DNA of 64,000 nt, taken from positions 124,001-188,000 of the forward strand of contig NZ_CP085324.1 of the NCBI RefSeq assembly GCF_020614395.1. Direction: 5' to 3'. Of the stretch, positions 59,570 through 64,000 are shown in pieces; positions within the stretch are counted from its first letter, which is position 1, and each line of letters starts with the position of its first letter. A program made the position numbers and the translations under genes. The notes beneath the pieces are model-generated. The model searched no databases, was not told where the DNA came from, and was given only the letters and a program-made list of their open reading frames with translations. Source of the stretch: Salarchaeum japonicum. Lineage in GTDB: Archaea > Halobacteriota > Halobacteria > Halobacteriales > Halobacteriaceae.

Positions 59570-60835
59570 CTAGAGCGCGTCCGCGTACGCCTCGATAGTT
59601 CGCTCCACGTCCTCCTCCGTGTGGCCGGCCGCGACGAACTGGCTCTCGAACTGGTTCTGCGAGAGCATGATTCCGCGGTCCTGCATCTGCGGGCGGAACA
59701 CGCGGTTCCAGCGCTCCACGCTCGCGTCACCGACGTCCCCGCCGTTCCGCGGGCGTTCGCCGTCTCGCGTGAACACGACCTTGAACAGGCTGTCCGTCCC
59801 GACCACCGAGTACTGGGGGGCCTGGTCTTCGACCACGTCCTCCAGGCCGGATCTGAGTTGGTCGCCGAGCCCGTTCACGTGGTCGTACACGTCCTCCTCG
59901 GCGGCGTACCGGAGGGTTTCGAGGCCCGCGGCCATCGTCACCGGGTGCCCGGAGAACGTCCCCGCCTGGAACACGTCGCCCGACGGCGTGAACTCGTTCA
60001 TGATCTCCGTTTTCCCGCCGATTGCGCCGACCGGGAACCCGCCGCCGATTATCTTCCCGAACGTCGTGAGGTCGGGGTCGAAGCCGTACTTCCCCTGCGC
60101 GCACTGCAGACCGCCGACGCGGAAGCCCGTGATGACCTCGTCCCAGACGAGGAGCGCGCCGTGGTCGTCCGCCAGGTCGCGGAGGGTCTCGTGGTAGCCG
60201 GGTTCGGGTTCGACGATGCCCTTGTTCGCGAGAACCGGCTCCACGAGCACTGCGGCGATGTCGTCGCCGTGTTCCTCGAACACCTCGTGGGCGGCCTCCG
60301 GGTCGTTGAACGGCACGGGGAGCGTGTGCTCCGCGAACGACGCCGGAATCCCGGGCGAGGACGGTTCTCCCTGCCCCTCGACCAGCGTGGACTCCTGCGC
60401 GCCGTGGTAGCCGGACTCCATCACGACGACCTTCTCGCGGCCCGTGTAGCCGCGCGCGAGCCGGACGGCGGAGACGGTGGCTTCCGTCCCCGAGTTCACG
60501 AACCGCACCATCTCCACGGAGGGAACGTGGCGCGTCACGAACTCCGCGTGCTCGACTTCGAGTTCGGTCGGCATCCCGAACATCGGACCGTCCGCCGTCC
60601 GGGACTGAATCGCGGACGTGACGCGGTCGGGGAGGCTGTGCCCGAGCAGGAGCGGCCCCAGCCCCATCACCCAGTCCACGTAGCGGTTCCCGTCCGCGTC
60701 CACGACGTGGCCGTCCTCGCCCGACCGGACGAACGTCGGGTACGGCACGGGTGCGGCGCGCACCGAGGAGTTCACGCCGCCCGGGAGCGAGTCGAGCGCG
60801 CGGTCGTAGAGGTCGCGAGACGTATCGCGGTTCAT
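59570..60835 (-). CDS. hemL: glutamate-1-semialdehyde 2,1-aminomutase
   Basis: PLP enzyme of 421 residues that makes 5-aminolevulinate in the C5 route. The block [11 protein letters not shown] near 17-27, the NSGTEAT loop near 114-120 and the PLP lysine K261 in [15 protein letters not shown] are diagnostic for HemL against other class III aminotransferases. It precedes hemC with 39 bp between. The partner glutamyl-tRNA reductase gene is not in the window. Confidence 0.94.
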
Positions 60836-60941: not shown

Positions 60942-61775
60942 ATGACTGACCGTCTCGACGGAGCGCGCGTCGGTCGCGTCGCGCTCGCCGTCACCGACCT
61001 CGACGCCGTCACCGCGTTCTACCGGGACGTCGTCGGCCTCGCGGTTCTCGACCGAACCACCGACGCCGCGACGCTCGGTGCCGGCGACACGCCTCTGCTC
61101 GAACTCCGCGCCGACGAGGGACTCCCGGAGCGCCCGCGCTCGGCCGCCGGCCTCTACCACGTCGCGTTCCGGTTCCCGTCCCGCGGCGCGCTCGCGGACG
61201 CCCTCGACCGCGTTCGCGACGACTGGCGGCTCGGCGGCGCGTCCGACCACGGCGTGAGCGAGGCGCTCTACCTCGCCGACCCCGAGGGCAACGGCGTCGA
61301 ACTCTACCGCGACCGCCCCCGCGAGACGTGGCCGGTCGCGGACGGTCGCGTGGCGATGACGACCGACCCGCTCGCCCTCGACGCCCTCGCCGCGGACGCC
61401 GACGGCGCGAGCGACGCACCGCCCGGAACCGACATGGGGCACGTCCACCTCGAACCAACCGACCTCGCGGCCGCCCGCGAGTTCTACGTGGACGCGCTCG
61501 GCCTCGCCGTCCGCCAGGAGTTCGGCGCGGACGCGCTGTTCGTCGCCAGCGGCGACTACCACCACCACGTCGGCCTCAACACGTGGCGGGGCCGCACCGC
61601 GCCCGCCGAGGGCCGCGGCCTCGACTGGTACGAACTCCTCGTCCCGACCGAGGCGGCGCTCGACGCGGCCGCAGACCGCCTCGTCGCCGCCGGCTACTCG
61701 GTCGAACGCACGCCGAACGGCCTCGCGGTCGCCGACCCGGACGGCATCACGCTCCGCCTCCGCGTCGCCGAGTAG
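60942..61775 (+). CDS. VOC-superfamily protein (glyoxalase/extradiol dioxygenase-like)
   Basis: Protein of 277 residues made of two glyoxalase-type beta-alpha-beta modules, about 8-125 and 163-275. Each begins with the typical lead (VGRVALAVTDLDAVTAFYRDV and MGHVHLEPTDLAAAREFYVD). Candidate metal ligands include His166 or so and HHHVGLNTWRG near 207-217, plus Glu in NGVELYRDR. Enzymes of this form include CatE-like catechol dioxygenases of Bacillus, but halophilic members are unstudied and the substrate is unknown. Confidence 0.82.
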   Translation: MTDRLDGARVGRVALAVTDLDAVTAFYRDVVGLAVLDRTTDAATLGAGDTPLLELRADEGLPERPRSAAGLYHVAFRFPSRGALADALDRVRDDWRLGGASDHGVSEALYLADPEGNGVELYRDRPRETWPVADGRVAMTTDPLALDALAADADGASDAPPGTDMGHVHLEPTDLAAAREFYVDALGLAVRQEFGADALFVASGDYHHHVGLNTWRGRTAPAEGRGLDWYELLVPTEAALDAAADRLVAAGYSVERTPNGLAVADPDGITLRLRVAE

Positions 61776-61865: not shown

Positions 61866-63695
61866 TCAGACTGCGTCCGGGCCGGTCTTGCCCGTACGAA
61901 CCTGGTAGGCGTCGGAGACGGGGATGACGAACACCTTCCCGTCGCCTTTCTCGCCCGTGTGCGCCGCGTCCGCGATGGCTTCCACCACGTCCGCCGTGGG
62001 GATGTCCGCGACGACGCACTCGATTTTCACCTTCTGATGGAGGTCGACCGTGTACTCCTCGCCGCGCCACTGCCCGGTCTTCGCGGGCTGACTGCCGCGC
62101 CCGGAGACGTTCGTGACGGTGAGCGACGGCGCGCCGATTTCGGCGAGCGCGGTCTTCACCTCGCTCAGGCGGTCGGGCCGAATGACCGACATCACGAGCT
62201 CGATCTCCGAATCGGATTCGAGTTCGAGGGCTTCGTCCTCGCCACCGTCGGTAACGGGACGTTCGTCCGTGCGTTCCCCACTACCGTCGGTAACGGGACG
62301 TTCGTCCTCGGGGAGGTCGACGCCGCCGTCAGTGACGAGTTCGGGGTCGTCGTCCTCGTGACCGCCGTCGGTGCGGAGTTCGCCGCTGCCGTCCGCGCGG
62401 ACGGTGGCTTCCTCGCCGCCGAACTCGGGGTACGCGGCGATGCCGTGTTCGCCCTGGTCGAGGCCGATTTCTTCTTCGTCCTCGTCGACGCGGAGGCCCC
62501 AGATGGCGTCCGCGATGGTGAGGACGATGCCGGTGGTGACGATGGTCCAGACGGCGATGACGATGACGCCGGCGACCTGCATCGCGAGCTGGCTCGCGCC
62601 GAAGCCGTCGGCGGCGAACACGGGGATGAGGATGGTTCCGATAGCGCCCGCGCTTCCGTGCACGGCGAACACGCCGCAGACGTCGTCGATGTTGAGGTTA
62701 CGGACGACCCAGCGGTGGACGATGGGGGTCTGGACGCCGCCGATGAGGCCGATGATGAGCGCGCCCCACCAGGTGACGTGGAAACACGCACCGGTGATGG
62801 CGACGAGGCCGGCGAGCAGGCCGTTCGCCGCGAAGAGCGGGTCGGGTTTGCCCTCGCGGAACGCGGTGACGAGCGTCGAGCCGATCGCACCGATACCCAT
62901 GGCGAGCGTGGTGTTCAGCGCGACGCGGCCGAGCGAGGTCTCGCCGACGGAGACCGCGGCGAGTTCGGTCGCGTCCGAGGGAATGCTGATGATGAACTGG
63001 GTGCCGACGTTGAAGCCGTACCAGCCGAACGCGAGGATGAACGTCCCGATGACGGCGAACACGACGCTGTGGCCGGGAATCGGGTGTGGGTTGCCGTCCG
63101 CGTCGAAGCGGCCCTTGCGGGGGCCGACCATGTACGCGGCGACGAGGCCGGCGAGGCCGCCGAGCATGTGGACGACGGTCGCGCCCGCGAAGTCCTCGTA
63201 GCCCGCGCCGATGGCGTCACCGAGGAACCCGCCCGCGGAGAGCAGGCCGCCCGACCACGCGAACCCGCCGATGACGGGGTAGATGAACGCGGTGAGGCAG
63301 ATGGCGGTGAACACGTACGCGCTGAACTTCATGCGTTCTGCGACTGCGCCGGAGACGATGGTGGCGGCGGTCATCGCGAACACCGCGCCGAACAGCCAGC
63401 CGACGCCCGCGCTCGGGTCGCCGATGTAGGCGAACGCGGCGCCGATGTCGAGCGCCGTGTCCGCGTTCGTCAGCTGGCCCGCCATCGCGTAGATGGCGTT
63501 TCCGAGCAGGAAGAACACGACGACGCCGAGCGCCCAGTCCATCATGTTCTTCATGACGACGTTCGCGGCGTTCTTCGCGCGAACCTGGCCGGCTTCGAGC
63601 AGCGCGAACCCGGGCTGCATGAAGAAGATGAGGAAGCAGACGACGAGCGTCCAGACCGTCTGGACGCTGCTGGCGAGTTCGATGATGCTCGCCAT
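61866..63695 (-). CDS. amt: ammonium transporter fused to a PII signal protein
   Basis: Membrane protein of 609 residues. Residues about 1-400 are a full Amt/MEP/Rh channel with eleven helices; the amt landmarks VHMLGG near 174 and a second-half His near 320 ([12 protein letters not shown]) are the twin pore histidines. An acidic linker (about 405-497) with in-frame repeats (ERPVTDG twice) follows. Residues 498-609 form a complete PII: T-loop with Tyr at PII position 51 (RGEEYTVDL), B-loop [11 protein letters not shown] and C-loop RTGKTGPDA. Usually PII (GlnK) is a separate protein that plugs the channel. Here the two are tethered, so gating may be intrinsic. PII position 101, normally Arg, is Gln. 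Confidence 0.93.
62244..62307. repeat. 25-bp direct repeat in the Amt-PII linker
   Basis: Positions 62244-62268 and 62283-62307 are identical over 25 bp, starting 39 bp apart, so the duplication is in frame (13 codons). It encodes the repeated ERPVTDG of the linker, which could lengthen or shorten by slippage or unequal exchange. Confidence 0.8.
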
Positions 63696-64000
63696 TACGC
63701 CACCCCCATCGCGCCGCAGTCAGTCAGTGGACGTTCGTCTACCGATGTTACCGTGTTGTGTTGCAACATGCGTCTAACTCACGGGAAGACACCATGAAAG
63801 AGGGGAGTATAATGGTTTGCTTCAGGATTCAAAATTATCGGGGTTGATTGTGTGCATATGGACAAAACCTAATCGGACATTATGCCCTTAAGGATGTATT
63901 CTGTCCAGTTGTGTGGCAATTGTTTCCACAGCACTTTCCGAACGTAGTGTCGGATTACTATCTATAATGGGTGTGTGGCGGCCGCCGACGCCGCGCGCGC
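63696..64000. other. 305-bp AT-richer region upstream of amt-PII
   Basis: No gene is visible. The minus-strand TATA candidate for amt is ATTATACT at 63806-63813, which would give a leader of about 85 nt. TGTTGCAACA (63759-63768) is a perfect 10-bp palindrome between that box and the start. TGTGG-CAATTGTTT-CCACA (63912-63930) is another dyad. TATAAT at 63963-63968 on the plus strand may belong to a gene beyond the window. The composition contrasts with the GC-rich neighbourhood. Confidence 0.6.

Follow-up and report, generated by a model that had tools for sequence, protein, structure and literature searches.

An ammonium channel joined in frame to a PII domain in Salarchaeum japonicum and other haloarchaea, with different channels on the same PII in congeners

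PII proteins are usually taught as mobile hubs that visit the ammonium channel, glutamine synthetase and other targets. What becomes of such a regulator when it is part of the channel polypeptide itself? The question is raised by a gene on the minus strand at positions 61866–63695 of the window, the 64,000-nucleotide stretch of the Salarchaeum japonicum genome that we analyzed, which translates as one 609-codon frame encoding 609 amino acids without internal stops. Residues 1–425 (62421–63695, −) form an Amt channel domain belonging to clade A of haloarchaeal Amts, as assigned by Pfam, pore residues and an AlphaFold2 (AF2) model; residues 426–497 (62205–62420, −) form an acidic, disordered, DGG-rich linker, delimited by composition, pLDDT and motif density; and residues 498–609 (61869–62204, −) form a GlnK-type PII domain, as assigned by Pfam PF00543, a match to 4OZJ and alignment of the model. 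Alignment with E. coli GlnK, together with low pLDDT, places the PII T-loop, which contains Arg47 and Tyr51 in E. coli numbering, at 62040–62102 (−; residues 532–552, disordered in the model). PF00909 (Ammonium_transp) matches residues 14–422 over profile positions 1–399 of 399 (E = 5e-105), PF00543 (P-II) matches residues 500–603 over positions 3–102 of 102 (E = 1.6e-25), and the Amt scores above the family cut-off of TIGR00836. The 609-codon frame and the Pfam matches to both domains thus bear out the initial annotation, which had described a full Amt channel, a linker and a complete PII domain in one reading frame.

In the 2.34-Mb S. japonicum genome, this gene supplies the sole Amt as well as the sole PII, and glutamine synthetase is encoded by one gene. 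The nearest named relatives are Halarchaeum species, at 72–74% identity across the whole protein; a search for viral relatives found none. Since the in-frame architecture recurs in dozens of independent assemblies, sequencing or assembly error is untenable as its cause.

How common is the arrangement? We surveyed 106 haloarchaeal genomes drawn from across the class, scoring a fusion where both domains returned the same open-frame length. Amt and PII are both present in 97 genomes and both missing from the same nine, and therefore PII never occurs there without the channel. Sixty of the 97 genomes carry an in-frame Amt-PII fusion, which supplies the sole PII in 58 and is accompanied by a free PII in two; the other 37 have no fused copy. 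The Amt-PII architecture is ordinary for haloarchaea, and the earlier view that such fusions exist in only a few other organisms does not hold. The initial annotation had also proposed to examine variation in linker length; the fused linkers range from 22 to 72 residues.

Three of the nine genomes without Amt and PII belong to the family of S. japonicum. Extra free PII genes lie beside the amt-PII locus in Halorhabdus, Halovenus and Halohasta (approximately L128:3934–4360, L094:3790–4390 and L081:5855–6362); given these genes, some lineages have kept or regained a free PII copy. Two apparent fusions were rejected: in G334, from outside the class, the single TAG is a normal stop with a start codon for PII after it, and in G266 (genus label g23, shared with a Haloferax genome) the 599-codon frame is a spurious overlapping frame.

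In a sample of the phylum outside the class, all of the matches listed over both domains contained at least one stop, although rare fusions there may have escaped this listing. In a plasmid collection, Ruminococcus albus and Enterococcus raffinosus (Bacillota) have a single annotated CDS that encodes Amt and then PII; these proteins share the domain order of the haloarchaeal fusions but have linkers without DGG repeats, and they probably arose independently. Amt, PII and their pairing are already well known, and fused genes are public, annotated as ammonium transporters. Our search of the open-access literature, with subscription journals outside its scope, found no description of haloarchaeal Amt-PII fusions. 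In Haloferax, amtB2-glnK2 is listed as a single annotated gene, which was called a misannotation (PMC11218638).

Are both halves of the protein equipped to function? By alignment with E. coli GlnK and AmtB (AmtB positions in mature numbering), the pore residues W148, D160, H168, F107, F215 and H318 are retained in all 67 haloarchaeal Amts compared, including the S. japonicum channel with its twin histidines, gating phenylalanines, Trp148 and Asp160. The S. japonicum PII retains the 2-oxoglutarate ligands Arg9, Gln39 and Lys58, the T-loop residues Arg47 and Tyr51, and the nucleotide ligands Gly87, Asp88, Gly89, Lys90 and Arg103; Arg47 and the ATP and 2-oxoglutarate ligands are conserved equally in fused and free PIIs. 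Because both domains are complete and Arg47 and the 2-oxoglutarate and nucleotide ligands are kept, we can soundly infer that the fused protein would block itself.

A single-chain AF2 model, built from an alignment of 58 fused relatives, has a confident channel, a disordered linker (pLDDT below 50 at residues 423–462 and 465–494) and a PII fold whose T-loop is disordered (low pLDDT at 532–552). Structural alignment of the modeled channel gives Z = 46.7 to Amt-1 of A. fulgidus and Z = 45.8 to AmtB from the E. coli complex with GlnK, and the modeled PII matches Haloferax mediterranei GlnK2 in 4OZJ and 4OZL (Z = 14.7). The best Amt matches also include the sensor Amt 6EU6 and the receptor Sd-Amt1 (8QJ3), both at Z of ~46; these Amt receptor fusions share the Amt domain and have been assigned receptor or sensor roles, with output domains of kinds other than PII.

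Position 101 of the S. japonicum PII had been singled out as Gln in place of the usual Arg, a change that might alter nucleotide or 2-oxoglutarate sensing. Alignment confirms the residue, but it has no special status: each of the 69 haloarchaeal PIIs examined has Gln there, whether free or part of a fusion, as does the crystallized H. mediterranei GlnK2, which was solved with ADP and with AMP. What the S. japonicum PII lacks, Arg101, is a common but non-defining PII residue. In methanogen GlnKs, the Arg at this position is in contact with nucleotide (PMC8395244), so that the ligand affinities of Gln101 and Arg101 PIIs may differ.

From the YPEF motif of the channel to PII, the S. japonicum linker comprises 72 residues, of which 27 are Asp or Glu and five Lys or Arg. 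The initial annotation was right that it is acidic and repetitive but overestimated its length at roughly 90 residues. Tandem Repeats Finder detects a 39-bp tandem duplication in the linker (62232–62310, −) that is missing from the congener G010. DGG or DGS motifs occur in all 75 fused haloarchaeal linkers examined (a few of these being one gene fetched twice), [TAPV]DGG reaches 6.3 per 100 amino acids in fused linkers versus 0.024 in other long ORFs of those loci, and a comparable DGG tail is frequent at the C terminus of unfused haloarchaeal Amts. Because the motifs are in every fused linker and DGG tails are on unfused Amts, the repeat is a feature of the lineage and no peculiarity of this gene, whose linker form had initially seemed unusual. 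Linkers span 52–72 residues in clade A and 22–55 in clade B (medians 65 and 29). Since even 22 extended residues would reach ~70 Å, linker reach is unlikely to be limiting.

How might a tethered PII act? The E. coli AmtB-GlnK complex (2NUU and 2NS1) resembles the S. japonicum protein in its channel fold, pore residues, PII fold, Arg47 and adjacent genes, but consists of two proteins, whereas S. japonicum has one chain, amt then PII, with Gln101 and no other PII. We consider it likely that the fusion is a haloarchaeal Amt carrying a GlnK-type PII inhibitor on a flexible acidic linker, with the tethered PII trimer acting as a plug for the channel trimer it belongs to until MgATP and 2-oxoglutarate release it. 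The basis for this reading is the architecture, the single copy of each domain, the conserved pore, T-loop and ligand residues, the wide occurrence, the presence of Amt and PII in the same genomes, and the structural matches of the model to AmtB and GlnK2. As the channel trimerizes, its three PII domains would be gathered into a tethered trimer beneath the pores. Under nitrogen sufficiency, with 2-oxoglutarate low and ADP bound, the T-loops would extend and Arg47 would plug the pores; with MgATP and 2-oxoglutarate, the T-loops would retract and the channel would open. The tether would fix a 1:1 stoichiometry, raise the local concentration and remove diffusible PII from the cell. What we infer in this scheme is the trimer geometry, the gating, that each plug serves the trimer it is part of, and that the cell has no free PII. 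A tethered plug is the simplest account given the AmtB-GlnK complex, the binding of free GlnK to AmtB1 after ammonium shock in H. mediterranei (PMC3831643), and the release of methanogen GlnK from membranes by MgATP and 2-oxoglutarate (PMC8395244).

The H. mediterranei pairs AmtB1-GlnK1 and AmtB2-GlnK2 (PMC3831643; 4OZJ, 4OZL) include the closest solved PII by sequence (GlnK2, 4OZJ; 199 bits). Haloferax relatives have channels of the same two clades, DGG in the Amt tail, and Gln at position 101; unlike the fusion, the H. mediterranei pairs have been treated as separate proteins. The fusions of Halarchaeum, Natrinema, Haladaptatus, Halorubrum, Halorussus and others have the same architecture and a DGG linker, but mostly on clade B channels with shorter linkers, whereas that of S. 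japonicum is on a clade A channel.

Does fusion matter to function? The haloarchaeal Amt tree contains two well separated clades, A and B, and the fused or split state has changed at least seven times on it. Split amt/glnK pairs either share an ATGA overlap or have just one in-frame stop between them, the latter in Haloferax clade B, and each switch therefore needs little. One possibility, compatible with self-block, is that fusion is nearly neutral, with loss of a stop or a small frameshift joining amt to glnK, another event splitting them, and function unchanged throughout. The repeated switching, the minimal junctions of split pairs and the DGG tails already present on split Amts all speak for near-neutrality. 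However, fusion predominates in clade B and has been kept across several genera, and a change that alters stoichiometry and deprives 58 genomes of their only free PII is difficult to regard as inconsequential. We regard near-neutrality as unlikely, although it retains appreciable weight, and that weight is not exclusive of a tethered plug.

A point against the tethered plug is that PII of Haloferax can in addition activate glutamine synthetase in vitro, according to PMC3831643, which cites earlier work; a tethered PII would have to do so at the membrane. The possible shift in ligand affinities with Gln101 is another. PII might also be cut free by a linker protease. In that case, one chain would be translated, the linker would then be cut, and PII would act as a diffusible GlnK on both the channel and glutamine synthetase, in keeping with the long disordered linker, the many relatives with free PII (including the 37 of 97 genomes without a fused copy) and the retention of one glutamine synthetase gene. 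Against cleavage, the fusion is in frame in 60 genomes with linkers of variable length, when a single stop, as in Haloferax clade B, would free PII. Another route to free PII, initiation within the linker, is unlikely, since the S. japonicum linker lacks in-frame start codons (ATG, GTG or TTG) up to residues 501–502, inside the first PII strand. We consider cleavage improbable. It is more improbable still that the protein is mainly a sensor that relays ammonium binding at the channel to PII without pore block, as the receptor matches might suggest. Amt domains joined to output domains can indeed serve as receptors, but here the twin histidines and the gating phenylalanines typical of conducting channels have been preserved, PII performs no catalysis as an output, and an unfused pair in the same class binds in an ammonium-dependent manner (PMC3831643).

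If PII is tied to the channel, have the two evolved together? The PII tree is at odds with the channel clades, as holding all clade A partners together is rejected (AU test, p = 0.00015). In genomes with both copies, the PIIs are 77–91% identical versus 48–57% for the channels. This difference is partly due to stronger constraint on PII; since the trees also conflict, which goes beyond constraint, the data suggest that PII has been repeatedly exchanged or gene-converted between copies. This interpretation differs from that for Haloferax, whose copies were read as a recent duplication (PMC3831643).

The most interesting part of our findings is a change of channel over a constant PII. The congener G010 has one fusion, at the same locus and with the same two neighbors, and its PII is 96% identical to that of S. 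japonicum. The G010 channel, however, belongs to the other ancient clade, B, and is 56% identical to the S. japonicum channel versus 87% to that of G039. DNA identity between the window and G010 is 91–99% upstream of about 64,100, ~50–80% through the promoter and channel, and 88–99% from about 62,234 into PII, the shift lying within the linker repeat, with the linker codons matching G010 from TDGGVDLPE, near 62,334. Together, blastn segments, the identity profile and the linker codons place a mosaic seam at 62308–62340 (−), from which the gene matches G010 to the C terminus and before which the channel is of another clade.

AU tests, chosen after the trees were seen, support the mosaic. Sisterhood of the S. 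japonicum and G010 channels is rejected overwhelmingly; at the DNA level, grouping of the G010 PII with that of G039 is rejected too (p = 0.002). An origin of the S. japonicum PII from Halarchaeum clade A without G010 is rejected by the DNA test (p = 0.002); the protein test of the same grouping gives p = 0.40. The PII of the genus fits Halarchaeum B (p = 0.36) better than Halarchaeum A (p = 0.02), whereas the linker end common to S. japonicum and G010 resembles clade A linkers. Halarchaeum has both channel clades in tandem. With near-identical PIIs on channels of different clades, the genus has either traded its channel for a different one while the PII stayed, or started from a tandem pair of which its species have each lost a different member, in both cases with the joint in the linker. 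The linker marks the joint where channel and PII parted company in evolution, and the finding that a sister species pairs this PII with a very different channel suggests that the channel half is swappable.

Upstream of the fusion, a scan of amt loci identified a possible short ORF of 24 codons (63695–63769, −) that shares TAATG with amt, its stop overlapping the start codon there. Of 79 haloarchaeal amt genes (loci L052–L130), 68 have a short ORF of 20–35 codons, in many cases with a GTG start, that terminates at their start codon, versus ~20% in shuffles and other genes, a contrast inflated by allowing several amt starts. At many of these loci, its GTG lies at the expected transcription start, downstream of a conserved AAC-CTAA--TTATAT element; substitutions follow no general codon pattern, except in Halorussus. 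The short ORF may be a coupled leader of a leaderless mRNA. On the other side, a VOC-family gene (60942–61775, +), weakly like extradiol dioxygenases and FosA at scores below all cut-offs, stands between the fusion and a hemL-like gene (59570–60835, −); it is missing from the otherwise collinear G010.

Finally, beyond the tethered plug itself, we tentatively propose a broader reading, which we hold to be possible and short of probable: in most haloarchaea, PII may have become a built-in channel gate and no longer be a diffusible signal, and the fusion may behave as a cassette in which the linker end and PII stay while the channel and promoter are replaced by recombination with an edge in the repeat-coding linker. 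If the sole PII of 58 of the 106 genomes is indeed tied to a channel, its other roles would be either absent or located at the membrane. Switches between fused and split states offer natural comparisons of tethered and free regulation, and the change of channel over one PII offers a comparison of two channel types under the same sensor. If the cassette reading is true, S. japonicum and G010 would form a naturally occurring pair in which two channels, ~56% identical, carry the same PII.
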